From the NCBI GenBank assembly GCA_938003855.1, contig CALKXD010000204.1:1-35792 (forward strand): a DNA stretch of 35,792 nucleotides, written 5' to 3'. The DNA comes from an uncultured Granulosicoccaceae bacterium. GTDB taxonomy: Bacteria; Pseudomonadota; Gammaproteobacteria; Granulosicoccales; Granulosicoccaceae. Below the pieces are notes generated by a model. It worked only from the letters and a program-made list of their open reading frames with translations. It did no database searches and was not told the DNA's origin. This document shows positions 3,185 to 28,531 of the stretch, in pieces (the first letter of the stretch is position 1; the number at the start of each line of letters is the position of its first letter). The position numbers and the translations under genes are program-made.

Positions 3185-4093
3185 ATGACTGAAACCATAA
3201 TCGGATCCGCCACACGCGATCACATTATCGGCTTCGAGAAACCCTTTACCATGATCGGTGAGCGCATCAATCCTACCGGTCGCAAATTGCTGGCAGAGGA
3301 AATGAAAAACGGCGACTTCAGCCGCGTTGAGGCCGATGCCATCGCACAGATTGAAGCCGGTGCACACATGCTGGATATCAATGCCGGTATCCCCCTGGCC
3401 GACGAACCAGCCCTGCTGGCCCAGGCAATAGAACTAGTGCAATCGCTAAGCGATATCCCTATCTGCATTGACTCTTCGATCGTTGAAGCCCTTGATCGTG
3501 GCTTGCAGGTGTACAACGGACGAGCGTTACTCAATTCAGTCACCGGTGAAACCGAGCGCCTCGAGCAAGTGCTGCCACTGGTAAAAAAATACGATGCCGC
3601 CGTGGTAGCGATCTCCAACGACGAAACCGGTATCTCCGAAGACCCTAACGAGCGATTCGCAGTCGCCAAAAAAATTGTTGAGCACGCCGCTGACTACGGT
3701 ATAAAACCATGCGACATAGTGATCGATCCGTTAGTGATGCCTATCGGCGCTATAGGTCAGGCTGGCAGACAGGTGTTCGACATTGTCGGTCGCATTCGTC
3801 GTGAGCTCAAATGTAATACCACGTGCGGAGCTTCTAACGTCAGCTTCGGATTGCCAAACCGCGGCGGCATCAACAGTGCTTTCCTGACCATGGCCATTGC
3901 CCACGGAATGACCTCGGCGATAACCAACCCGATCCACACAGAAGTGATGGATGCAGTGATGGGCGCTGACGTACTAATGGGACACGACCAGGACTGTCTG
4001 CGCTGGATTGCGAAACACCGCGAGGTCCCGACAACCGGCGAAGGTGCTGGCCGGGGCAGACGTGTATCAAAGCGCCGCAGACCGGCAAAATAG
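3185..4093 (+). CDS. Methyltetrahydrofolate:corrinoid methyltransferase (pterin-binding, MtgA-like)
   Basis: Moves the methyl group between the corrinoid protein and THF. The 302-aa protein belongs to the dihydropteroate-synthase-fold pterin-binding methyltransferases: G-E-R-I-N-P-T-G-R-K (25-34), L-D-I-N-A-G (63-68), C-I-D-S-S (94-98), S-N-D-E-T-G and C-G-A-S-N-V-S-F-G-L-P-N-R are all present. The core ends near residue 284 and is followed by an 18-residue tail with eight Arg/Lys, G-E-G-A-G-R-G-R-R-V-S-K-R-R-R-P-A-K. The ATG at 3185 follows AGGA (3172-3175) with 9-base spacing. It is co-directional with metF and the activator. MtgA of glycine betaine demethylation is the closest functional model; the family also includes AcsE and the MetH pterin domain. 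Confidence 0.92.
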   Translation: MTETIIGSATRDHIIGFEKPFTMIGERINPTGRKLLAEEMKNGDFSRVEADAIAQIEAGAHMLDINAGIPLADEPALLAQAIELVQSLSDIPICIDSSIVEALDRGLQVYNGRALLNSVTGETERLEQVLPLVKKYDAAVVAISNDETGISEDPNERFAVAKKIVEHAADYGIKPCDIVIDPLVMPIGAIGQAGRQVFDIVGRIRRELKCNTTCGASNVSFGLPNRGGINSAFLTMAIAHGMTSAITNPIHTEVMDAVMGADVLMGHDQDCLRWIAKHREVPTTGEGAGRGRRVSKRRRPAK

Positions 4094-4118
4094 CAAATAG
4101 GCGGATACCCAGGCGGCT

Positions 4119-6134
4119 ATGTCAGAACAAGACGTAAAAGTTGTTTTCACCCCCAGCGGGCGTCGCGGTCGCTTTCCACACGGTACGCCAGTGCTGGAAG
4201 CGGCACGCTCGCTTGGAGTCGACATCGACTCAGTCTGCGGCGGTCGTGCAATTTGCGGGCGCTGCCAGATTCTGTGTGCCGAGGGTGATTTCCCTAAACA
4301 CGAAATTCACTCCAACGCATCGAGTTTATCGGCCTTTACCAAAACCGAAGAGCGCTGGGAGCGGGTAAAAAAATTATCGCTTGATGGCAGACGACTCAGT
4401 TGCCAGGCCCGTCTGCACGGCGATGCTGTCATTGATGTTCCCGCCGACAGCCAGGTCCATCGGCAAGTCATCCGCAAAGGCGCTGACCTGCTCGACATCG
4501 TCTTAAACCCGGTTGTGCGGCTTTACTATGTTGAGGTTCAGGAACCGGATATGCATTCTCCGACCGGTGATCTGCAACGGCTGATCACCGCTCTGGAATA
4601 CGAATGGCACCTGAGTGACCTGCATTGCGCCCCATCCATTTTTACCAGTCTGCAGAAAACGCTTCGTGCCGGCGACTGGAAAGTTACCGCAGCGATCAGT
4701 GGTGATCACAACATTATCGCACTCTGGCCGGGTTTTAAGGAACAGGTTCTGGGCATGGCCGTTGACATTGGCTCTACCACCATCGCCGCGCACCTGTGCG
4801 ACTTAATGACCGGCACCGTACTCGCGTCGAATGGCCTGATGAACCCGCAGATTCGCTTCGGTGAAGACCTCATGAGTCGGGTGTCATACGTGATGATGAA
4901 TCCTGATGGCGACAAAGACATGACACGCGTCGTGCGAGAAGCGATCAGCGAACTGATCACCTCAAGCACCGAAGAGATCGGCGCATTGAGCGACGATGTG
5001 CTGGCGATGACGCTGGTTGCGAACCCGGTAATGCACCATTTGCTACTTGGCATAAACCCAGTAGAGCTTGGCGGTGCACCATTTGCGCTTGCGACCGATG
5101 CAGCAATTCATTGCAATGGAGCAGAACTAGACCTTAACACCCATCCAAACGCGCAGATCTACGTGCTGCCGTGCATTGCCGGTCACGTCGGCGCTGATAC
5201 TGCCAGCGTCATACTTGCCGAGCGTCCAGACACCATGGAAGAGATGACTCTACTGGTCGATGTCGGCACCAATGCAGAAATAGTGCTGGGCAACCGGCAT
5301 CGCCTACTGGCCTGCTCGAGTCCAACCGGACCAGCCTTTGAAGGCGCTCAGATCAGCGGCGGCCAACGCGCTGCACCCGGTGCTATTGAACGGGTTCGAA
5401 TTGACCCTGAAACACTCGAACCAAAATTCTCTATCATTGGCTCAGAGCTTTGGTCAGACGACCCTGGATTCGAAAAATCTATAGAAGGCCTGGGCGTTAC
5501 CGGCATTTGCGGCAGCGGTATCATTGAAGTCATCGCCGAGATGTTCCTTGCCGGAATAATCGATACCAACGGAGTCATAAGCTCAGAGCTGGCAGCGAAA
5601 AGCAGCCGCTTGATCGAGGATGGGCGAACCCATTCATATGTGCTTCACGACGGTGACGTGAAAATCATCATCACCCAGAACGACGTGCGTCAAATTCAGC
5701 TGGCCAAAGCTGCTCTATATGCCGGTGTGCGCCTATTGATGGACAGGCTGGAGGTAGAGCACATAGACCGCATCAGACTGGCCGGGGCTTTTGGCAGTCA
5801 CATTGATGTCAAATACGCGATGGTACTGGGGCTGATCCCGGATTGTAACCTCGACAACGTTTCGTCAGCCGGCAACGCCGCTGGCTCCGGTGCGCGCATT
5901 GCACTGTTAAACCGGGAATCACGAACCGAAATAGAAGCGTTGGTAAATCAGGTGGAGAAAGTTGAAACCGCCGTCGAGCAGAAATTTCAGGATCACTTTG
6001 TCGAAGCGATGGGAATACCACATAAAACAGCGGTGTTCCCGAATCTAGAACGCGTCGTGAAGCTGCCGGAGCCGACCCCGGCAGGAGATAACTCAGAGGG
6101 TCGCCGAGCCCGTCGTCGTCGGCGCAGAAGCTGA
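4119..6134 (+). CDS. Reductive activator of corrinoid protein (RACo-type, 2Fe-2S plus ASKHA ATPase)
   Basis: Restores inactive Co(II) corrinoid to Co(I) using ATP. The 671-aa protein starts with a plant-type 2Fe-2S ferredoxin domain with cysteines C40, C46, C49 and C95 (C-x5-C-x2-C-x45-C), then the RACo linker and middle domains, then the DUF4445 ASKHA ATPase. Phosphate-loop motifs are D-I-G-S-T-T (216-221) and D-V-G-T-N-A-E (381-387), with S-P-T-G-P-A-F-E-G-A after 400 and G-A-F-G-S-H-I near the end. This architecture is that of RACo, not of RamA, which has C-terminal 4Fe-4S clusters. The last 11 residues contain eight arginines. The 3' end overlaps the convergent regulator gene by 42 bases. 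It is the last gene of the operon. Confidence 0.92.
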   Translation: MSEQDVKVVFTPSGRRGRFPHGTPVLEAARSLGVDIDSVCGGRAICGRCQILCAEGDFPKHEIHSNASSLSAFTKTEERWERVKKLSLDGRRLSCQARLHGDAVIDVPADSQVHRQVIRKGADLLDIVLNPVVRLYYVEVQEPDMHSPTGDLQRLITALEYEWHLSDLHCAPSIFTSLQKTLRAGDWKVTAAISGDHNIIALWPGFKEQVLGMAVDIGSTTIAAHLCDLMTGTVLASNGLMNPQIRFGEDLMSRVSYVMMNPDGDKDMTRVVREAISELITSSTEEIGALSDDVLAMTLVANPVMHHLLLGINPVELGGAPFALATDAAIHCNGAELDLNTHPNAQIYVLPCIAGHVGADTASVILAERPDTMEEMTLLVDVGTNAEIVLGNRHRLLACSSPTGPAFEGAQISGGQRAAPGAIERVRIDPETLEPKFSIIGSELWSDDPGFEKSIEGLGVTGICGSGIIEVIAEMFLAGIIDTNGVISSELAAKSSRLIEDGRTHSYVLHDGDVKIIITQNDVRQIQLAKAALYAGVRLLMDRLEVEHIDRIRLAGAFGSHIDVKYAMVLGLIPDCNLDNVSSAGNAAGSGARIALLNRESRTEIEALVNQVEKVETAVEQKFQDHFVEAMGIPHKTAVFPNLERVVKLPEPTPAGDNSEGRRARRRRRRS

Positions 6135-7181
6135 GCACACCGTGGTTCGGCGTAAGGTGGTTATTTTTTTGGTACCGCCAGCGCGCCTGACCGCTTGTGC
6201 CATTTCCACCTGACCCGCAGCCTTGCGTCTTTCATCGCGGGGTGGCAACCCGAAAGTATCGCGGTAGCACTTACTAAAATGCGGCGCTGAAATAAATCCA
6301 CAAGCCAGTGCGATATCTACAATAGGCATGCTGGTTTGCAGTAGTAACTGCCGTGCCCGCTCCAAACGCAACTCTAGATAGTAGCGGGTCGGTACGCACT
6401 GCAGGTAGCGCTGAAACAATCGCTCCAATTGGCGACGTGACAAGCCGACATGAAACGACAATTCATCAAGCGTCATTGGCTCTTCGATGTTGGCTTCCAT
6501 CAAAGACACCGCCTCAGCAAGTTTCGGCTGGTTGGTACCGATCCGCTGCGTTAGCGGAACCCGTTGCCGGTCGTGCTTGTCGCGGATCCGATCACACATA
6601 AACTGCTCGGTGATCGCCGATGCCAGATCAGCGCCATGAGTGTTGCGGATTTCGTGTAGAAACATATCGAGCGGAGCCGTGCCACCGGCGCTTGTGTATC
6701 GATCACCATCTATCTCGAATAACTCGGGAGAAATCACCAGGTGTGGGAATTCTTCCCGTGCGCTGGCCATATTTTCCCAGTGAATGGTGCAACGACGCCC
6801 GTCAAGCGCATCTGATTTGGCCAGCAGATAAGTGCCAGTGCAAACCGCACCCAGTGTCATCTCACGCTTCGCTGCGGCGCGCAACCAGGCAATGACAGAC
6901 GGATCAGCATAATGCTGGACTTGATTACCGGAACAGATAAACATTGCATCCAGATTTACCGCTTCATTGAGTGATTTGTCCGGAGTGATTGCGATGCCGT
7001 TACTCGCTGGGATCGGATCGCGGGTCGCGCCGAAAACAGTCCAGTCGTAAAGTTGCTCACCGGCCAACTGATTGGCCATTCGCAACGGCTCCACACAGGA
7101 AGAGAATGCCAGCATGGAAAAACTTGGAACCAGCAAAAAGCCGATTGTGGTGGGCCCACCGACTTTCTTGGGTTTTATCAT
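6093..7181 (-). CDS. GlxA-family AraC-type transcriptional regulator
   Basis: A cytoplasmic regulator of about 362 aa: an N-terminal class-I glutamine-amidotransferase-like (DJ-1/PfpI fold) ligand domain (about 12-185, with A-V-C-T-G-T-Y-L-L-A around the nucleophile elbow) and a C-terminal pair of AraC helix-turn-helices (about 225-320, ending with I-A-L-A-C-G-F-I-S-A-P-H-F-S-K-C-Y-R). GbdR, which controls glycine betaine catabolism in Pseudomonas, has this architecture, so control of the adjacent demethylation genes is likely but inferred. I choose ATG 7181 over GTG 7187 because GGAG lies eight bases upstream of it. The C-terminal extension of about 40 residues is low-complexity, rich in Thr, Ser and Arg, and its codons overlap the end of the activator gene. 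Confidence 0.9.
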   Translation of the reverse strand: MIKPKKVGGPTTIGFLLVPSFSMLAFSSCVEPLRMANQLAGEQLYDWTVFGATRDPIPASNGIAITPDKSLNEAVNLDAMFICSGNQVQHYADPSVIAWLRAAAKREMTLGAVCTGTYLLAKSDALDGRRCTIHWENMASAREEFPHLVISPELFEIDGDRYTSAGGTAPLDMFLHEIRNTHGADLASAITEQFMCDRIRDKHDRQRVPLTQRIGTNQPKLAEAVSLMEANIEEPMTLDELSFHVGLSRRQLERLFQRYLQCVPTRYYLELRLERARQLLLQTSMPIVDIALACGFISAPHFSKCYRDTFGLPPRDERRKAAGQVEMAQAVRRAGGTKKITTLRRTTVCSASAPTTTGSATL

Positions 7182-7431
7182 CAACACATCTCCAGAGCTA
7201 TTGGGTTAGTGTCAGGTTTTTTATTATGGTCGAATACGATATCGCGACGTCTCCGATAAATTCTTCCGCAGGTTCCGACTGAACGTCAAACGCCCGATCC
7301 AGCTTTCCCGACAGGGCGATAATGTACTGTTTGCGACATTTCACATGAGTGCCAGTTGACAAAACTATCAGGGGCCAGTGTAAAAAAACCGCTCATCGCT
7401 CAAATGTAAATCATAAAAATCACTCAACCTA

Positions 7432-7451
7432 TTGATTAGAATGACAATCAA
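7432..7451. promoter_or_regulatory. Dyad TTGATT-N8-AATCAA, candidate operator
   Basis: A perfect inverted repeat, TTGATT, eight bases, AATCAA, in the AT-rich DNA about 250 bases upstream of the GlxA-type regulator. Such spacing fits a dimeric regulator site. AraC-family sites are more often direct repeats, so ownership is uncertain. Confidence 0.3.
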
Positions 7452-7629
7452 CGAACACGCGATTCTCACGCGGCAAACGCACATTTTGAAACTAATTATT
7501 TCCGTGCACGTAAATTCCACCGGAAATAGCGGTTTTATCTGTTAATTAAGACAATCCGACACCAGTGGAACAGTTGATATTTCAGCAATTTTTGCGTAAC
7601 GGGAACACATATCCCGTCAGATACGAAAG

Positions 7630-7661
7630 CCCACCGGCGTGTCAATTAACAATCCGGTGGG
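7630..7661 (-). terminator. Putative terminator of the MttB-like gene
   Basis: CCCACCGG, a 16-base loop, then CCGGTGGG form a perfect 8-bp stem starting 10 bases past the MttB-like stop codon. On the minus strand it is followed by CTTTCGTAT, only weakly T-rich, so termination may be partial. Confidence 0.55.
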
Positions 7662-7670
7662 TCAGCACAC

Positions 7671-9227
7671 TCAATAATTAGAGTCAGGGAAGGACCCTTT
7701 GCGCTGTGCGATGTAGGCCAGTAATGCGTCATCAATGGCGGGATCAATCTCGGGCGCCTGGTAGGCCGCCAAGCGCTCTTTCACTTTCATGCTGGCACGC
7801 TGCGCCGCATCCATTGCCCCTTCCGACTCCCATTGCTCAAAGCTATTGTTATCCGCAATATCCGATCGGTAAAACGCATTTTGAAAATTGTTCTGAGTAT
7901 GTTCACAGCCGAGAAAATGAGCGCCGGGCCCAACCTCGCGCAGGGCACTCAAGGCCTGACCGTTTTCAGAATCATCGATGCCCGATGCAAACACCTGCAA
8001 CATGCCAGCCTGATCGTCGTCCATGATAAATTTCTCGTAGCTCATTACCAGCCCCCCCTCCAGCCAACCAGCTGTGTGCAACATGAAATTGACGCCGGCA
8101 AGCATTGCCGACTGCAGTGTATTCGCAGCCTCATACGCCGCTTGCGCATCTGGCAGCTTGGATGCATTGAGCCCACCGCCGGATCGGAACGGAACCCCCA
8201 GACGCCGAGCAAGCTCAGCGGCAATAAACAGCACCGAGGACGGCTCTGGCGTGCCAAAGGTGGGTGCCCCCGACTGCATCGAAACACTACTGGCAAAAGT
8301 GCCGAAAACGACCGGCGCGCCGGGCCGCACAAGCTGCACAAACGCCATCCCGGCCAGGGCTTCGGCTAGAATTTGCGTTACCGTTCCAACCACGGTTACC
8401 GGCGACATAGCACCGGCAAGAATGAACGGTGAGATCACGGTGGCCTGATTCGCTTTCGCGTAGACTTCGGCGGCACCAAGCATGGTGTCGTCAAATGTCA
8501 TCGGCGAGTTTGCATTGATCAAATTGATAACCACCGTTTTTTCCAAACCGGTGGCTGGATCGAGAAAGTTGTCGCCAAAGAGAATTTTCGACATCTCAAT
8601 GGTGTCTTGCGCACGGTCGGCTGCGGTTACTGACCCCATGTAGGGCTTATCGCTGTAGCGCATGTGCGCGTAGACCATGTCAAAGTGGCTCTTGTTAACC
8701 GGCAAGTCCACCGGTTCGCAAACGGTTCCACCCGAATGGTGCAGTGACGAGCTCATGTAAGCCAACTTCACAAAATTATGGAAGTCTTCCAGATTTGCGT
8801 ATCGCCGACCGTTATCGAGATCGCGCACAAATGGTGATCCGTAAGCCGGCACCAGTACCGTGCTGTCCCCGCCGATTTTGACACTTCGCGAAGGGTTCCG
8901 CGCATGCTGTGTAAATTCAGACGGTGCACTTTTCTGAATGATGGCGCGGCACATGCCACGCGGAAAGCGGACACGCTCCCCATCAACATCAGCACCTGCT
9001 TCGCGAAACAACTCCAGCGCACGAGGAAAATCGCGAAACTCTATGCCGATCTCCTCAAGAACGGTATCAGCATTGTGCTCAATCAGTTCCAGCTGCTCAG
9101 CGCTGGCATGACAGTAGGTAGGTACCCGACGCGTTATATATGCCGCACCTTGCGCCTTGGCGGCATTGCTATGCGCTGCTCGCCTGGCCTCTCGACCACC
9201 CGCTCTTCTTCGTTTGTTACCAGCCAC
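7671..9227 (-). CDS. MttB-superfamily (trimethylamine methyltransferase family) quaternary-amine methyltransferase, non-pyrrolysine
   Basis: A 518-aa TIM-barrel methyltransferase that demethylates a quaternary (or tertiary) amine and methylates the corrinoid protein. It aligns by eye with MttB-family proteins of Roseobacter and rhizobial type (H-A-S-A-E-Q-L-E-L-I-E near the start, G-S-P-F-V-R-D-L-D, L-A-G-A-M-S-P-V-T, C-E-H-T-Q-N-N-F-Q-N-A-F-Y near the end). There is no in-frame UAG, so it is not a pyrrolysine MttB and is unlikely to use trimethylamine; characterised non-Pyl members act on glycine betaine, proline betaine, carnitine or gamma-butyrobetaine. The start is GTG with a weak ribosome binding site. 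The first 25 residues contain eight Arg/Lys (K-R-R-R-A-G-G-R-E-A-R-R). It is transcribed toward the regulator. Confidence 0.9.
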   Translation of the reverse strand: MAGNKRRRAGGREARRAAHSNAAKAQGAAYITRRVPTYCHASAEQLELIEHNADTVLEEIGIEFRDFPRALELFREAGADVDGERVRFPRGMCRAIIQKSAPSEFTQHARNPSRSVKIGGDSTVLVPAYGSPFVRDLDNGRRYANLEDFHNFVKLAYMSSSLHHSGGTVCEPVDLPVNKSHFDMVYAHMRYSDKPYMGSVTAADRAQDTIEMSKILFGDNFLDPATGLEKTVVINLINANSPMTFDDTMLGAAEVYAKANQATVISPFILAGAMSPVTVVGTVTQILAEALAGMAFVQLVRPGAPVVFGTFASSVSMQSGAPTFGTPEPSSVLFIAAELARRLGVPFRSGGGLNASKLPDAQAAYEAANTLQSAMLAGVNFMLHTAGWLEGGLVMSYEKFIMDDDQAGMLQVFASGIDDSENGQALSALREVGPGAHFLGCEHTQNNFQNAFYRSDIADNNSFEQWESEGAMDAAQRASMKVKERLAAYQAPEIDPAIDDALLAYIAQRKGSFPDSNY

Positions 9228-9690
9228 GGATACACTCGCTGTTGCAGAATTAAATAAACGTCAAGTATTAGCTTATTAGGGTTAATCAGCTGCCGAACTA
9301 GCGACAGGCAGGTGCACGCACGCGCCAATAGGACGATAGCAGACACAAACAGCCCGATCGCTCGCAATCCCGGTACAATTTGCAGTTTGTCACCGCGAAA
9401 CAGATACTCAAACTGCTGATTTTGCTATTTTTGTGGAAGTCGCTGGCGATGATGCACGGTCGAGTTCCGTGAATGCGCAATTTTTGTCAGGGCTCCAGAC
9501 ACTGACGATTGACAAAACAGACTCGCAATCGTGCAGTACCAGCTGGTAATACGCTGCACCGAACCATGCATTAAGTCGTTAAATCAGCGAAAATCTCCAC
9601 AATATCTATCCTTAATCCTTTCGATCTTAAATTAAACGCTAATTGTCACGGCCACCAGCAACGCGGCCGGTTGTACACAAGGGGACGCAA
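9228..9690. other. Divergent intergenic region
   Basis: About 460 bases between the divergently read MttB-like gene and the OmpA/BON operon, so it should contain promoters for both. A TTGACA sits at 9509-9514 on the plus strand, but no convincing -10 follows at 16-18 bases. AT-rich DNA at about 9595-9645 is the likelier promoter zone for the envelope operon. No RNA element is recognised. Confidence 0.5.
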
Positions 9691-12546
9691 ATGGCAAAAC
9701 CACCAGAAAACGAACACGAAAATCAGGCCTCAAAAGACCCATCTGATCGCCCCCCTGTCGGCAGAAATCTGGCTGATAGAACCGCCAGCAGCCAGAACAG
9801 CGGTAAAGAGTCGATCTCAAAAACCGTTACCAACGCTGTCAGTCCAACGGCCAAAGCCACGGACAAACTCGACTCGCGAGCGCCCAGCAGCGTAAACCAG
9901 GCGGCAGCACCGACCACAGGCACCAGCACTAAAACAACCACGCAAATCACCGGTGCAGCCGACCGACAGTCACCACCACCATTGCCTCGTGACGCCCGCT
10001 TACAAAAGCCGGCAGCGACCGTGAGTGCGCCGGGTACACCAAGTGCTGAAACCGGCACTAGAGCACCACAGCGCCCCGCCGAACCCCAGCCTTCAGCGTC
10101 TACACGCCTGCGCAGTCGCTCACCCAACCCGCTCGACAAACCAACCGGCGTTGACGACACACGCACCGAAAGGCCCAGGGCAGACTACCGCCAGCCGCCA
10201 AAACGACGCGATTCGCGACCACCTGCCACAGACGCCAGCGCAACGCGCACCGATCTCCGCCCGCGACGACCCGGCAGCCGGCCACCAACAACTGACCTAC
10301 GGGCGACCACCAGTGACGCACGCCCTGGACGCTCTGACGTTCGCTCGCCACGTGTTGACGGCAGACCGTCTCGTGTCGATGCACGCCCTCCTCGACCTGA
10401 CGGACGTCCGTCCGGCGCACCACCACGGCGATCTCGACCAGCTCCCGAACGTCCATCTGGCAACGCCCGGGGTACACCCGACAGCAGAGCGCCTTCCCGT
10501 CCACCTCGCGGTGGTGGCCACTACGACAGTGCACCGCGCAGATCAGGACGGCAGATGGCGCCACCGCCAGGGGCCAGCGGAAGAGGACACTTTGCCCAGC
10601 GGCCGGCTCGACGTGCACCGGCAATCGTCGATCCGGCACTGGCTCGTCAGGAAGGTTCCTGGGGGCCGTTGCTGCTCGGTATACTGCTGCTGGCCGGGGT
10701 TGGCTGGTATGCAATCCGCCATTACACACCGCAAATTGAATCTGACCTGGCCCGTCGCAGCACCGCAGAGTTGACCACAGCCGGTTTGGCCGACAATACG
10801 TCCGTGTCCGTCACAGGGCGCACAGTAACGCTGGACGGATCGGTTGAGACCCAGGCAGACCGTGACCTGGCCGAGAGCACCGTGAGCAACGTTTTCGGCG
10901 TTCGCGCTGTTGACAATAGACTCGCGGTGGGCTCCGCAACGACTAGCGCGGCACAACCCGCAGCAGAACCGGCATTTGAGCTGTCGGGTGACAATGGCGC
11001 GGTGACAATCTCGGGAACTGTTTCCGACGCCAAATACGCCACCGCGCTTGAAGATGCTGTCAAAGCAAAATTCGGCGCTGAGAACGTTACCGGCTCAATC
11101 GCAGTCGATGAAAACACCACCAATCCCGGATGGCTGAGTGCCGTGACGGCACTGATTCCCGAAACCGATCTACTGGAAGGTGGCGGACTGTCAGTAACGA
11201 ATGACACCCTGACCCTCACTGGCAAAGGCAGTGCCGAGGCCAAAGAAGCGATTGGTACCACTGCAACCACCACACTGAACGGCTACCTAACCGTCGACAA
11301 CCAGATCGAAGCGCCGGAACCAGAGCCGGCACCCGAGCCTGAACCCGCTCCAGAACCTGAGCCAGCCCCCGAGCCCACACCGGAACCTGAACCTGAACCA
11401 GCCCCGGAACCTGAGCCTGAACCCGCGCCAGCACCAAAGCTAGCGCCCTTCGCCACCGTTTCGCAAACAGGTGATCAGATTACACTCAGCGGCTTCATGT
11501 CGGCCAACAGTGCCAGCCAACTGGCTGATGCTTACAAAGACAGCGATAAAAACGTCATCAACAACATCACTGTTGATGAACGCGCAGCGGCACCTGAATG
11601 GATAGATTCAGTCTCTCAATCACTGGCTGCCCTGGATAATGTCCAGGACGCCGGCATCACCCTCACCAGAGGCGGTGCGGTACGTTTGAACGGTATTGTC
11701 GAGAGCGATGACCTGAAGCAACAGTCTGAAGCCACAGTCGCTGGAATTTTCGGCCCGACTTACACCATCAACAACCGGTTAACCGTCGAAGTACCTCCTG
11801 TGGTCCCGACCATGGCACCGTTTGCGTCGCTCAGCGAAAACGGCGACGAACTTCGCATCACCGGCTTGTTGCCACCAGAGGCCAGCAAGGCAATCAACAC
11901 CGCCCTGCAGGCCAGTGGTCAACCCGTCATCAGTAATATCACTGAAGATGAGCGCGTAATGGCACCGGACTGGAGCGATCAGTTCGCGAACTCGCTGGTT
12001 GCCCTAAATAGCATTCAGGATCGCAAAGTGATTGTCTCAAGCAGTGGTGATGTCACACTGAGTGGCATTGCCGATACCGAGGCCGCACGCCAGTCAGCGG
12101 TGGATAACGCCATGACGTTGTTTGATGAATCAATAACGATTACCAATAACATTGCGTTAGCGGCACCGAAAATAATACCGCGGGACGAGCTGCAAAGCCT
12201 GTTGGATGGTATAGAAGTAACGGCGATCCGATTTAGGTCGAATAGCGCAGAGCCTGATGCTGATAGTGTGGCTATACTTAACCAGGTGGCAGACGCACTT
12301 CTGCAGTACCCAAGTGTCAGTGTCAACATAGAAGGTCACACGGATTCACTTGGCGACTACAACTACAACCTGAGTCTCAGTGCTGATCGTGCGCAGTCAG
12401 TGAGTACATTTTTGACGAACCGAGGCGTGGCTTCCGAGCGACTCGCCGCCGAGGGTATTGGTCCCAATCGACCGGTTGCCTCTAACGCGAACTCAGCAGG
12501 CCGTGCATTGAATCGACGCATCGAGTTCCAACTTACCGGAGAATAG
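9691..12546 (+). CDS. Inner-membrane-anchored BON-repeat/OmpA-domain protein with long disordered basic N-terminus
   Basis: A 951-aa envelope protein. I choose ATG 9691 because AAGGGG lies six bases upstream; an in-frame start at 9643 lacks this. Residues 1-320 are disordered, rich in Pro, Arg, Ser and Thr, with heptad-like D-x-R-P-x-R-x repeats. One membrane helix (about 323-345, G-P-L-L-L-G-I-L-L-L-A-G-V-G-W) follows, with no cleavable signal, so the tail should be cytoplasmic. Periplasmic part: a BON domain (about 350-412), three tandem 115-residue modules of BON-like pairs, a Pro-Glu/Ala rod (541-582) between modules one and two, and a C-terminal OmpA peptidoglycan-binding domain (about 838-951) with G-H-T-D-S and N-L-S-L-S-A-D-R-A. 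It resembles mycobacterial OmpATb in domain type but is far longer. Translation of the next gene is probably coupled. Confidence 0.88.
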   Translation: MAKPPENEHENQASKDPSDRPPVGRNLADRTASSQNSGKESISKTVTNAVSPTAKATDKLDSRAPSSVNQAAAPTTGTSTKTTTQITGAADRQSPPPLPRDARLQKPAATVSAPGTPSAETGTRAPQRPAEPQPSASTRLRSRSPNPLDKPTGVDDTRTERPRADYRQPPKRRDSRPPATDASATRTDLRPRRPGSRPPTTDLRATTSDARPGRSDVRSPRVDGRPSRVDARPPRPDGRPSGAPPRRSRPAPERPSGNARGTPDSRAPSRPPRGGGHYDSAPRRSGRQMAPPPGASGRGHFAQRPARRAPAIVDPALARQEGSWGPLLLGILLLAGVGWYAIRHYTPQIESDLARRSTAELTTAGLADNTSVSVTGRTVTLDGSVETQADRDLAESTVSNVFGVRAVDNRLAVGSATTSAAQPAAEPAFELSGDNGAVTISGTVSDAKYATALEDAVKAKFGAENVTGSIAVDENTTNPGWLSAVTALIPETDLLEGGGLSVTNDTLTLTGKGSAEAKEAIGTTATTTLNGYLTVDNQIEAPEPEPAPEPEPAPEPEPAPEPTPEPEPEPAPEPEPEPAPAPKLAPFATVSQTGDQITLSGFMSANSASQLADAYKDSDKNVINNITVDERAAAPEWIDSVSQSLAALDNVQDAGITLTRGGAVRLNGIVESDDLKQQSEATVAGIFGPTYTINNRLTVEVPPVVPTMAPFASLSENGDELRITGLLPPEASKAINTALQASGQPVISNITEDERVMAPDWSDQFANSLVALNSIQDRKVIVSSSGDVTLSGIADTEAARQSAVDNAMTLFDESITITNNIALAAPKIIPRDELQSLLDGIEVTAIRFRSNSAEPDADSVAILNQVADALLQYPSVSVNIEGHTDSLGDYNYNLSLSADRAQSVSTFLTNRGVASERLAAEGIGPNRPVASNANSAGRALNRRIEFQLTGE
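10315..10419 (+). repeat. Heptapeptide-coding repeat (D-x-R-P-x-R-x)
   Basis: Five consecutive seven-residue units in the disordered N-terminus of the BON/OmpA protein: D-A-R-P-G-R-S, D-V-R-S-P-R-V, D-G-R-P-S-R-V, D-A-R-P-P-R-P, D-G-R-P-S-G-A. Less regular copies lie upstream from about 10180. At DNA level this is a degenerate 21-base tandem repeat. Confidence 0.75.
11311..11436 (+). repeat. Pro-Glu/Pro-Ala rod-coding tandem repeat
   Basis: Forty-two codons alternate Glu-Pro and Ala-Pro (units such as E-P-E-P-A-P). Such stretches form stiff extended rods, as in TonB. Here the rod separates the first periplasmic BON module from the second and could span part of the periplasm. The codons vary, so this is protein-level selection rather than recent slippage alone. 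Confidence 0.85.
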
Positions 12547-12550
12547 GAAA

Positions 12551-15511
12551 ATGAGCCCCTACGTTATGGGTGAAATGATCATCGGGCTGGCGCTGGCTGC
12601 GCTGGCCGGTATGGTGATCGGCTGGTGCATTAAAAGCCTGTTCACCGGGCGCACTGAGCAAAAAGTGCGCGAACATGTCGCCCGTGATGTCGACGAAGCT
12701 GCGGCTGATGTTCAACAGATGCAGTCTGCATTGCAGAAAAAAGAGACCGAGTTGCGAGAGCTGACTGTTGAGTTACAGCAATTACGTGGTCGCGATGCAT
12801 CGCTGAAGGCTGGCAACAGCACACAGATTCAGGAAATCAACGCGCTTAAACAAGAGCTCTCTGAATCCCGCCAGTCGCTGGATCGCAATCGCGCAGAGTT
12901 CAATGCTTTTCGCAATGAAAAGCAAACTGAAACTCAGGCGCTGACGAGTAAGCTGTCCAGCTTCCAGGCCGGGGGGCCTGTCTATGACGAACGAATAAAA
13001 GAAGCCAATGAAACGATCACTGCACTGCGTACTGCAGTGCAGGAAAACGACAAAATAATCGACAGCTTGCGAGCCAGGGTTAAAGAAGGGGATCAGAGCG
13101 TTGAGAACCTGCGGAATCAACTTAAAACCGCCGAATCCACCACACGGGAGATTCAAGCCGCCGAAAACACCCGTAATGCTGAGCTCGCCGCTCTAAATAC
13201 CAGCCTGCAGGAAGCCAGTGCGCAACGCGATAACTTCAAGCGTGACTACGATCAGACACTCGAGAGCAAGAACGCTGAAATTGCCAGACAGCAGGCGCGC
13301 CTCGAAGAACTCGGTTCTGTGCAATCCTTGCTGCAACAAAAGGAACACGCGCTCAACAAACTCACCGAGGACAGCCGCAATCTAGGTAACCGCAGCAACA
13401 CCCAGATTACCGAGCTAAAGAAAACTATTGCCGACAGAGACGGCGCGCAAGCACAGGCTCAAAAGGAGCTCAAAAAGCAGCTGGAAGAGATCAACTCGCT
13501 GCAAGCCAACCTCAAAGCGACCACCACCCGTCACGACAAGCAAATGGTCATGCTTAACGACAAACTGGCTGCGACCAAAACAGACTTGCTCGCCAAAAAC
13601 AAAGCGACTATTGCCCGACACGAAAAACAAATGGCCGAACTGCAAGCGAAACTCGACGACACTCGTCGTCAGTTGCAAGCGGCCAATGACACGGTTGAAT
13701 CAACCCGATCCGTGCAACAGGAAATTGAAACCAAAAATGCCGAGGTGTCCGCTCTCAACGATCTACTTCGTGATGTCAGTGGGAAACGGGACACACTGCA
13801 AACCCGAATCACCACCCTCGAACAACAGCTTGGTGCGGCCAGGGTCAACGAGGCGGCTGCAAGTGAAGCACAGCATCAGTTGAAGGCGATGGAATCAACC
13901 GTTGAAGAACGCGACGCTCTGTTCGCCAAGCTACTTGGCGATATGGATGCAGTAGTAGCGAAACGCAACAGCTTGAGTACAGAACTCGGCGAGCTACAAA
14001 CCGCGAACTCTAAATTAGAAGAAACCGTCACAGCCGACGCAGAGCGCAAACTGGCATCATTGAACGAAGAAATGCGCGAGCGCGATAGTAATATCGAAAA
14101 ATTGCGCACTGACATGGCCCAGATTGTCACCAGCCGCGACGCACTGGCCGCTGAAGTCACTCGGTTAAAGACACGCGCTGCTGAGCTGGAAACCTTCAAA
14201 ACACAGGCGAAAGCCACAGTTGACACGCGCACGACCGAATTGTCACAACGCAACGCCGCCTACGAGAAACTGCAAAACGAATTCAGGCAACTTACCTCCA
14301 CACGTGACGAGTACGAAAAACGCCTGACGCACTTGAGCGCCAGAGTGGAAGAGCAATCACGTGCCGGCGAAACGGAAATCGCCCAACTGAAATCCCAGGT
14401 CGCAGACCTGCGCCAGCAACTCACCGTCGCGCAAAGTGACAATCAACGCCTCAGCGAAGAGCTGTCCAGCGCAGAAGGACTGAAACTTAAAATCACCGAG
14501 CGTGAATCAGAAATTAAAAAGCTGACTATCAGCTCTCGCGATGCAGGCACAGCAGACTCGCTGAAATCTGCCTTGGAGGAACAATCGAAGAAGACCTCAA
14601 CGTTAACCTCTGCCCTGCAGGAACGCGACGCAGAAATAAGCCGGCTCAGCGCAATCGTCACTGACAACCGCGTTGGCAGTAAGCAGCATGCCTCTGAAAA
14701 TGCGCTGCTTAAACAAGAGCTGGAATCTCAACAAAAGCTGATTAGCTCACTCGAGGAGCAAGCAGAAAGCACCTTGGTACTGCACAAGAAAATTGCCTCC
14801 CAATCAGCAGAGATTGAAGAGCTGCAGGCCACCCTTTATCAAAGCAACTCTATCGACAACAAAACCAGACCTGCTCAGTCAGATACCACTGACCGCAGCG
14901 TCAAACTAAACGCATTGGAAAAACAACTTGCTGACAAAGATGCCGAGTTACAACGGGTAAAAAGTCAGGCTGTCGGGTTACAGCAGCTGCAAACCCAAAA
15001 TGAAGAGTTAAAGCGCGCAGTTAACGCACGCAATAGAGAACTTCAGCAAACCCGACTTGAGCTGGCCGGTATCGCTGCAACCGCTGGCACCGATAACCGT
15101 GCGTCGACCACCAACAAAGGGGATGCACTGACCGCAGCACAGGTCAGCAAGGCCAAGCCCCGAGTTTTTGTACGGCCCGACTCGCCTGCCACTGGCAATT
15201 TGACCGGAACCGATTCCGTTCATCAGCGCAGAGCGCAATACACCCGGGATGGTTACAAACTGACTGACGCAGATGGACGCGATGATCTGACCCTGCTGCC
15301 GGGCATCGATAAAAGTAAAGCGGTCGTGCTTCAGCAAGCAGGGATCACCGAGTTTGAAAAGATAGCCTTGTGGGGACAACGGGAAGTAGTACATTTTGCT
15401 GATCGCCTGAACGTCTCGTCGAAGCAGGCAGACAGCTATAATTGGCCGCACTGCGCCAGACAGATGCTTGATGGCAGCTTCCGCAGGGATACCAGGCTTG
15501 AAGACGCCTAG
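12551..15511 (+). CDS. Membrane-anchored giant coiled-coil protein with C-terminal helix-hairpin-helix-like domain
   Basis: A 986-aa protein: one N-terminal membrane helix (about 6-28, M-I-I-G-L-A-L-A-A-L-A-G-M-V-I-G-W) followed by R-T-E-Q-K-V, which by the positive-inside rule places the long part in the cytoplasm. Residues about 45-840 are continuous heptad-like coiled coil rich in Glu, Gln, Lys, Ala and Leu, and a linker follows. The last 75 residues (from about base 15278) hold D-D-L-T-L-L-P-G-I-D-K-S-K-A-V-V-L-Q-Q-A-G-I-T-E-F, a helix-hairpin-helix-like fold known from DNA-binding or oligomerising proteins. The start follows GGAG (12538-12541) four bases after the preceding stop, so the two form one operon ended by the terminator at 15571. 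No family name is certain; a scaffold role is inferred. Confidence 0.85.
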   Translation: MSPYVMGEMIIGLALAALAGMVIGWCIKSLFTGRTEQKVREHVARDVDEAAADVQQMQSALQKKETELRELTVELQQLRGRDASLKAGNSTQIQEINALKQELSESRQSLDRNRAEFNAFRNEKQTETQALTSKLSSFQAGGPVYDERIKEANETITALRTAVQENDKIIDSLRARVKEGDQSVENLRNQLKTAESTTREIQAAENTRNAELAALNTSLQEASAQRDNFKRDYDQTLESKNAEIARQQARLEELGSVQSLLQQKEHALNKLTEDSRNLGNRSNTQITELKKTIADRDGAQAQAQKELKKQLEEINSLQANLKATTTRHDKQMVMLNDKLAATKTDLLAKNKATIARHEKQMAELQAKLDDTRRQLQAANDTVESTRSVQQEIETKNAEVSALNDLLRDVSGKRDTLQTRITTLEQQLGAARVNEAAASEAQHQLKAMESTVEERDALFAKLLGDMDAVVAKRNSLSTELGELQTANSKLEETVTADAERKLASLNEEMRERDSNIEKLRTDMAQIVTSRDALAAEVTRLKTRAAELETFKTQAKATVDTRTTELSQRNAAYEKLQNEFRQLTSTRDEYEKRLTHLSARVEEQSRAGETEIAQLKSQVADLRQQLTVAQSDNQRLSEELSSAEGLKLKITERESEIKKLTISSRDAGTADSLKSALEEQSKKTSTLTSALQERDAEISRLSAIVTDNRVGSKQHASENALLKQELESQQKLISSLEEQAESTLVLHKKIASQSAEIEELQATLYQSNSIDNKTRPAQSDTTDRSVKLNALEKQLADKDAELQRVKSQAVGLQQLQTQNEELKRAVNARNRELQQTRLELAGIAATAGTDNRASTTNKGDALTAAQVSKAKPRVFVRPDSPATGNLTGTDSVHQRRAQYTRDGYKLTDADGRDDLTLLPGIDKSKAVVLQQAGITEFEKIALWGQREVVHFADRLNVSSKQADSYNWPHCARQMLDGSFRRDTRLEDA

Positions 15512-27463: not shown

Positions 27464-28531
27464 ATGACGAACATTATCACCCAACTGCTGCAGGAAAAAT
27501 CATACATTTTGGCTGACGGCGCAACCGGCACCAACTTGTTCAGCATGGGCTTGCAAACCGGAGACTCCCCCGAATTCTGGAACGCCGATCATCCCGAACG
27601 TGTCACCGCACACTACAAAAGCTTCATCAACGCCGGCTCTGACCTGGTCCTGACCAATACCTTTGGCGGCAATCGCTTTCGCCTGCAACTGCATGGCGGC
27701 GAGAACCGCGTTGATGAGTTGAACGAAAAAGCGGCCGGGTTACTGCGTAGCGCAGCCGATCAAGCTGATCGAAAAGTGCTGGTAGCCGGGGACATTGGCC
27801 CGACAGGTGAGATCTTTCAGCCTGCCGGCACGCTTGATATCGAGACCGCCACCGACGCTTTTGCTCAACAGGCACAAGCGCTGGCGAACGGCGGGGCCGA
27901 TCTGATCTGGATCGAAACGCTGTCTTCGATCGAAGAAGCCAGAGCCGCTTTCGCCGGAGCCAGAACCACAGATCTACCAGTGGTATTTACCATGAGCATC
28001 GACACCAACGGCCGCACCATGATGGGTGTGACAGCCGAAGATATCGTCAATCTAGCCGCTGAGATGCTGCCGGACTTGACGGGTTGTGGCAGTAATTGCG
28101 GTGTCGGGGCAGCAGAAGTTGTCGCCGCGATGGTGAACATGAAGCAGTCGTGCAGTAAATTTGATCAGGAACCCGTCTTTGTGGCCAAGGCCAATTGCGG
28201 TATTCCTGAATGGGTCGACGGAGAAATTGTTTACAACGGCACACCGGATTTGATGGCACGTTACGCTCAGCTTGCCTACGATTCCGGTGCCCGTATTATC
28301 GGCGGTTGCTGCGGCACCACGCCCGCCCATATCACCGCGATGCGCGATGCCCTCGACAACCATCAACCCGGCCCGGTCCCGCAAGTTCAACAGATTATCG
28401 CCGATCTCGGCGAGGTATCTGTTGGCGCTCAGTCACAGTTACTGGGCGACATGACAGTGGCCGGTGGCTCGGTGTCCGGAACGTCACCACGGCGTAGCAG
28501 ACGCACCAAGCGCACCGCCCGCCCGGAGTAA
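27464..28531 (+). CDS. Betaine-homocysteine-methyltransferase-like zinc S-methyltransferase
   Basis: A 355-aa homocysteine S-methyltransferase domain protein. The barrel shows D-G-A-T-G-T-N-L near the start and the zinc ligands C212 (S-N-C-G-V-G) and C282-C283 (G-G-C-C-G-T-T-P). Overall it looks like the bacterial betaine:homocysteine methyltransferase group that makes methionine and dimethylglycine. After residue 310 it has an extension ending in a basic 15-residue tail, S-P-R-R-S-R-R-T-K-R-T-A-R-P-E, of the same style as the methyltransferase and activator of the corrinoid operon 20 kb away, suggesting a common complex. An alternative is a corrinoid-linked methyltransferase (MtgB-unrelated, MetH-like module). 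It is divergent from the TRAP operon. Confidence 0.88.
   Translation: MTNIITQLLQEKSYILADGATGTNLFSMGLQTGDSPEFWNADHPERVTAHYKSFINAGSDLVLTNTFGGNRFRLQLHGGENRVDELNEKAAGLLRSAADQADRKVLVAGDIGPTGEIFQPAGTLDIETATDAFAQQAQALANGGADLIWIETLSSIEEARAAFAGARTTDLPVVFTMSIDTNGRTMMGVTAEDIVNLAAEMLPDLTGCGSNCGVGAAEVVAAMVNMKQSCSKFDQEPVFVAKANCGIPEWVDGEIVYNGTPDLMARYAQLAYDSGARIIGGCCGTTPAHITAMRDALDNHQPGPVPQVQQIIADLGEVSVGAQSQLLGDMTVAGGSVSGTSPRRSRRTKRTARPE

Follow-up and report, generated by a model that had tools for sequence, protein, structure and literature searches.

The window analysed here is a 35,792-nt stretch of DNA (contig CALKXD010000204.1, assembly GCA_938003855.1) from an uncultured marine Granulosicoccaceae bacterium. 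It carries two adjacent genes on the forward strand, which we call A and B; coordinates refer to this strand unless stated otherwise. Gene A (9691–12546) encodes a 951-residue bitopic BON/OmpA protein, as judged from translation of its open reading frame (ORF), Pfam matches and a fold model. Gene B (12551–15511), delimited by ORF translation, starts 4 nt past the stop codon of A and encodes a protein of 986 residues. On balance, we favour the reading that the two genes encode an inner-membrane linker module in which the long N-terminal tail of A would provide an extra cytoplasmic contact at the same site.

Protein A: domains, topology and N-terminal tail

The ATG at 9691 is the preferred start of A: an AGGGGA ribosome-binding site lies just 5′ of it, and relatives keep the N-terminal motif from this ATG. 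An in-frame TTG at 9643 is a less likely start. A search for a promoter-like site 5′ of A found none. Since the gap between A and B is only 4 nt, which is the sole ground for this view, both genes would lie on one transcript.

Pfam detects BON (PF04972) in four stretches of A, with 87 bits against a cut-off of 27, and an OmpA-like peptidoglycan-binding domain (PF00691), with 67.1 bits against 27.2. The full-length fold model, built from ten orthologues, has seven BON-like units (one followed by three pairs) and then the OmpA domain. The first unit covers residues 370–413 (10798–10932; Pfam and fold model), and the pairs, delimited by the fold model and profile searches, cover residues 428–540 (pair 2, 10972–11310), 587–699 (pair 3, 11449–11787) and 711–823 (pair 4, 11821–12159). 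The OmpA-like domain is placed at residues 848–942 (12232–12516) by Pfam, alignment and fold match. Its Asp and Arg that hold diaminopimelate, spaced 15 residues apart, correspond to D885 and R900, which are invariant in an eight-sequence alignment (A2). Pairs 2 and 3 are separated by an acidic Pro-Glu (PEPAPEPEP) periplasmic linker (residues 541–586, 11311–11448), which the Tandem Repeats Finder (TRF) program recognizes as a DNA-level tandem repeat of 12/36 nt; the length of the linker varies among relatives.

Only one strong hydrophobic stretch is present in A, at residues 324–342 (10660–10716; Kyte–Doolittle value 1.75, with 1.04 for the next best). It is the predicted single transmembrane helix and acts as a signal anchor; in the fold model, the helix is continuous over residues 324–363, its last part being periplasmic. 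The charge is +28 N-terminal to the helix and −50 in the C-terminal part. Since A contains no cysteine, it has no lipobox, and with 323 residues ahead of the helix we rejected both a signal peptide and a lipoprotein. Short-tailed homologues have 2–17 residues before the same helix, as is usual for an N-in signal anchor. Since the periplasm is where BON and OmpA domains act, and since A has a single helix, its N-terminus is placed in the cytoplasm. Sequence and fold model thus strongly support an A that is anchored N-in by one helix, with its BON array and OmpA domain in the periplasm, and cleavage of the helix appears unlikely. Both the topology and the uncleaved helix had been proposed in a first-pass annotation of this DNA.

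Residues 1–323 (9691–10659) form an Arg/Pro-rich tail (50 Arg, 10 Lys, 23 Asp, 9 Glu and 54 Pro; net charge +28). In the fold model, nearly all of the tail has a predicted local distance difference test (pLDDT) score below 50 and no secondary structure, so that the basic disordered tail of about 320 residues annotated earlier on a BON/OmpA protein is borne out by composition and model. Two motifs at the ends of the tail are conserved in alignments of relatives: MAKPPEN at residues 1–7 (9691–9711; consensus MANPPDN), and GRQMAPPPGASGRGHF at residues 286–301 (10546–10593; consensus RRRMAPPPGAxxxGRF), just before the membrane helix. A frameshift or wrong-frame artefact as the origin of the tail is rejected, as relatives keep the frame, both end motifs and the synteny.

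Between the end motifs, residues 174–243 (10210–10419) hold six D-x-R-P motifs with a periodicity of seven residues. These heptads, also recorded in the first-pass annotation, are real: 0.6 copies are expected, none of 5000 shuffles reaches 6, and identity at a lag of seven residues is 0.40 versus 0.14 in shuffled tails. Nevertheless, every relative of A has only 0–3 copies and the heptads are confined to the source species. Their lack of conservation gives no support to a role as a functional element, and we reject them as conserved binding repeats. A DNA tandem repeat as their origin is likewise rejected, since TRF reports none in the tail and finds only the Pro-Glu linker and a short 13-nt repeat further on.

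It is possible, though not the outcome we expect, that the tail is low-complexity sequence whose expansion has been tolerated and which does little, that only its two end motifs matter and that A works like its short-tailed relatives. Across relatives, the tail is 20–40% identical, compared with 44–58% for the membrane-periplasmic part of A and 66–96% for the flanking enzymes, and this weak conservation of the tail middle speaks for such an expansion, as does the restriction of the heptads to one species. Lengths point the same way outside the genus: the tail measures about 92 residues in the sister genus (G017) and 2–17 residues in paralogues, and there is very little of it in relatives elsewhere. 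Within the genus, in contrast, all 13 other genomes (most genomes compared in this study are metagenome assemblies) keep the tail, which is 230–424 residues long in the 12 with a complete A gene, the 13th copy being interrupted by a contig end. These tails contain 9–21% Pro and 9–15% Arg and are all positively charged (+4 to +32), and conservation of both end motifs also argues against a merely tolerated expansion. The tail of A is thus best described, at the sequence level, as a disordered region that appears to be held by its composition and terminal motifs.

Protein B and the conservation of the A–B pair

B begins with a predicted transmembrane helix (residues 9–27, 12575–12631) that shows a conserved small-xxx-G/S-xxx-G pattern. 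In all genus members, the charge is −1 before this helix and +2 to +5 after it, and the N-terminus of B is therefore placed outside and its body in the cytoplasm. Ala15 and Gly23 are invariant in 12 compared sequences from Alpha- and Gammaproteobacteria, although some genus members have Thr or Ser in place of Ala15. The helix is the most constant part of B.

The C-terminal 67 residues of B are predicted to fold as a domain, with pLDDT of about 90 over the core. Both the fold model and structure matches identify it as an HhH domain of the Rad51-N/NusA-AR type (15275–15475); its best matches are the N-terminal domain of RadA (Z of about 6; 2.5 Å over 60 residues) and NusA AR2 (Z of 5.4). In relatives, Pfam HHH_5 stays below its cut-off. 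The same type of domain is also found in other bacteria as a C-terminal extension of NuoE, of ribosomal proteins L21 and S2 and of a phasin.

From its modelled fold, the HhH domain of B may be a DNA binder. It is conceivable, although we put limited trust in it, that the tail of A binds nucleic acid or ribosomes and, together with this domain, anchors the nucleoid or the translation machinery to the wall. The strong positive charge of the tail, with Arg far in excess of Lys, would suit such a role, and so would the resemblance of the domain to Rad51/RadA N-terminal and NusA AR domains and its occurrence on L21 and S2. However, HhH and AR domains bind proteins too, as in the NusA AR2–SuhB complex (6ib8), and the domain is also present on NuoE and on the photosynthetic protein-O, neither of which has a known DNA role (PMC12079452).

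Residues 35–860 of B (12653–15130) are predicted from their hydrophobic periodicity to form a long cytoplasmic coiled coil (net charge −14); the 3.5-residue period scores 0.77, versus a maximum of 0.30 in shuffled sequences. SMC_prok_B and Rod_CreS score far under their curated cut-offs (70.9 versus 567, and 25.9 versus 100, respectively), and we rejected B as an SMC protein or a crescentin; the coil is a generic one. The first-pass annotation had described an acidic coiled-coil partner encoded next door, on which the tail of A could dock. The coiled-coil body is close to neutral (net −8 over 883 residues; −18 to +10 in genus relatives, most of them positive), and its most acidic 50-residue stretch reaches only −6. 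Adjacency of the genes and the shared cytoplasmic location of tail and coil would favour docking by charge, but the neutral coil makes it improbable, and long coiled coils are also the partners of A proteins whose tail is short. The description as acidic therefore falls, and that of a functional partner is upheld by the co-occurrence of both genes.

In each of the 14 genus genomes, and also in G017, A is followed by a co-directional, adjacent B, within the gene order RACo–GlxA–MttB–A–B–amidinotransferase (some contigs end early). In the source genome, the pair is present at least five times, including paralogous pairs on contigs C213, C11 and C138 and a further one on C111, where an HhH-bearing B directly follows an A-type gene. 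Only three ORFs of this 6.8-Mb genome contain the HhH domain, and two of the three immediately follow an A-type gene. Profile A1, which spans the helix and the first BON unit, finds matches in 41 of 48 family genomes and in 51 of 397 phylum genomes; in some of the phylum genomes, only the BON part accounts for the match. On reading the loci, we found A to be directly followed, on its own strand, by a B-type gene in families f58, f65, f75, f78, f82, f89, f95, f107, f111 and f1. Besides the source family, the pair is present in about nine family-level lineages of Pseudomonadota, where the Alpha and Gamma labels of distant genomes are deduced from kinship labels and sequence.

In an automatic test, a B-type helix protein follows 28 of 36 A genes versus 2 of 331 other genes from the same loci, with a helix criterion that was drafted after examples of B had been seen. 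Of the eight misses, four (L083, L117, L159 and L161) reveal a B on inspection. A stricter helix pattern, Ala-xxx-Gly-xxx-Gly, gave 15/42, a low count explained by the Thr that some genus members have instead of Ala; the criterion was relaxed and the same kind of control rerun. We found no published description of a BON/OmpA protein paired with a coiled-coil/HhH protein in the open literature.

Across lineages, the middle of B may be no more than a short linker or a coiled coil as long as 1100 residues, and some B proteins, namely the three paralogues on C213, C11 and C138 and those of the f75 group, have no HhH domain. For these reasons, we regard the two membrane helices and the periplasmic BON/OmpA part as the core of the pair, and the cytoplasmic parts, the long tail of A included, as variable attachments.

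Several B-type proteins depart from the form found in the window. An orphan of 2299 residues without a preceding A gene (locus L191, G000:C280, ORF 4519–11416, +) has an N-terminal helix, a giant coiled coil and two tandem HhH domains, and ORFs of about 2100–2600 residues with domains matching it recur across the genus. At a gammaproteobacterial locus (L152, G427:C5, ORF 4071–7103, − strand), a long repeat array of the PKVDVxLPxxDV type replaces the coiled coil. In family f65 (among loci L148, L149 and L155), B starts with three helices and carries two or three HhH domains, and in f75 the gene after A consists of the three-helix part of B alone.

Comparison with known systems

The nearest solved relative of A is OmpATb/ArfA (Rv0899) of Mycobacterium tuberculosis (E values of 1.8e-24 for sequence and 2.1e-12 for fold), in which membrane anchor, BON and OmpA follow each other in the same order. 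The two proteins differ in the number of BON units (one region in OmpATb/ArfA, seven units in A) and in the part ahead of them: the N-terminal domain of OmpATb comprises residues 1–72, anchor included (PMC6151718), whereas A has 323 residues before the helix. Because OmpATb/ArfA shares the order of parts and has only this 72-residue domain, the overall architecture of A was already known and the long tail is its new part. We found no description of such a tail for the OmpATb/ArfA family in the open literature, so the earlier remark that A lacks a described equivalent fails for the architecture and stands for the tail.

The gene after that for ArfA in Mycobacterium encodes a small membrane protein, ArfB (Rv0900), which NCBIfam labels as channel accessory protein. 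The ArfA operon resembles the A–B pair in that a membrane protein is encoded next door; nevertheless, the ArfB model covers 50 residues and, unlike B, has neither a coiled coil nor an HhH domain. The ArfB model (NF051435) does not match B of the source stretch. It matches the helix of an alphaproteobacterial B (G169) with 22.7 bits (9.1e-5), under the cut-off of 40; this B is the best ArfB match in its whole genome, but 6 of 14 control genomes match as well. Due to the sub-threshold scores and the matching controls, common descent of A–B and ArfA–ArfB is a lead, not a result.

That A is an ArfA/OmpATb orthologue, serving acid or ammonia adaptation or as a channel, seems to us very unlikely. 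The shared domain order and the score of ArfA_OmpATb_N (NF051434) on the whole of A (100.7 bits, cut-off 81) would favour orthology, along with the ArfB-like helix in one lineage. However, the score is a sum over four repeats, single stretches reaching 36.6–43.1 bits, below the cut-off, and the ArfB matches have the weakness just described. Moreover, OmpATb reportedly does not form a barrel, going by the title of a paper by Teriete from 2010 that PMC6151718 cites, which counts against a channel role for A. We class A as a bitopic BON/OmpA protein that would act in the manner of ArfA, and not as its orthologue.

MotB/PomB, TssL and other bitopic OmpA-domain proteins consist of a cytoplasmic part, a helix and a periplasmic peptidoglycan-binding OmpA domain. 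A has the same layout, and OmpA-domain matches to these proteins were found, but its BON array replaces the plug or linker, and neither MotA nor type VI secretion system neighbours are present at the locus. We rejected A as a MotB/PomB stator, as its helix, WGPLLLGILLLAGVGWYAI, contains no Asp and its neighbours are MttB, B and an amidinotransferase. DolP, OsmY and BonA share periplasmic BON domains with A; they are secreted or lipidated, whereas A has no signal peptide or lipobox.

ZipA and EzrA are N-out membrane-anchored cytoplasmic coiled-coil proteins. B is like them in topology and in its rod-like cytoplasmic part, a likeness in layout alone, and adds an HhH domain and an OmpA-type partner. 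A C-terminal HhH-type domain as in B occurs in the NuoE extension and in protein-O of the Dinoroseobacter shibae RC-LH1 complex (8YY9), where the N-terminus is membrane-anchored and the domain has no assigned role (PMC12079452). Protein-O is encoded between nuoE and nuoF and has a two-helix hairpin anchor, no coiled coil and no reported BON/OmpA neighbour. FtsZl1-OmpA operons (PMC2875224) have only the OmpA domain in common with the A–B pair.

A putative linker module across the inner membrane

From the domain content, the topology signals and the co-inheritance of A and B, all seen in sequences and models, we infer how the linker module might work. In the periplasm, the OmpA domain of A would bind peptidoglycan. 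For B, sequence and models strongly support an N-out anchor formed by its highly conserved helix, with the coiled coil and the C-terminal HhH domain in the cytoplasm. Association of the two proteins would occur through their membrane helices, involving the small-xxx-small-xxx-G face of B, and the pair could in this way mechanically tie the cell wall and the inner membrane to a cytoplasmic rod; the HhH domain at the tip of this rod would hold a cytoplasmic ligand, either nucleic acid or protein. The tail gained by A in this genus may add a second, multivalent cytoplasmic contact. Its polycationic middle would most likely meet a polyanion (the anionic membrane surface, ribosome/RNA or the nucleoid), while the end motifs would dock on a specific partner. 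We consider polyanion binding combined with end-motif docking the most likely role of the tail, as far as its sequence indicates, and a neutral spacer the main rival.

Some observations weigh against this linker module. Adjacency of A and B indicates joint function, not contact, and a single genus, whose members are not independent, supplies about 13 of the 36 A genes counted for adjacency. As some B proteins have no HhH domain, their cytoplasmic ligands may differ. The shortening of the tail to about 92 residues in the sister genus and a net charge of only +4 in one genus member mean that tail charge may not be critical.

A more far-reaching version of the linker module, which we think doubtful, would make A–B a trans-envelope linker, widespread in Proteobacteria and so far undescribed, that physically connects peptidoglycan with the nucleoid or the translation machinery via the HhH domain of B, with Granulosicoccaceae having reinforced its cytoplasmic end by the tail of A and an 800-residue B coil. 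Taken by itself, the tail is an oddity of a single genus; its value is that it points to a conserved module that faces both sides of the inner membrane. If A and B touch, they would give many Proteobacteria a direct mechanical connection from the cell wall to the cytoplasm. The pairing also supplies a partner and a predicted topology for proteins annotated merely as 'OmpA family', 'hypothetical' or NuoE-like.

Separately from the A–B pair, Arg-rich ends are found on C1/methylamine enzymes encoded in the window (3185–4093, +; 4119–6134, +; 7671–9227, −; 27464–28531, +), and they are possibly a shared docking signal, to judge by their sequences. RACo ends with EGRRARRRRRRS, and its C-terminus is Arg-rich in 12/12 relatives checked. 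MttB begins with MAGNKRRRAGGREARR, and the relatives checked have an Arg-rich N-terminus as well. Similar Arg-rich C-terminal tails are present on the dihydropteroate-synthase-like and BHMT-like proteins.

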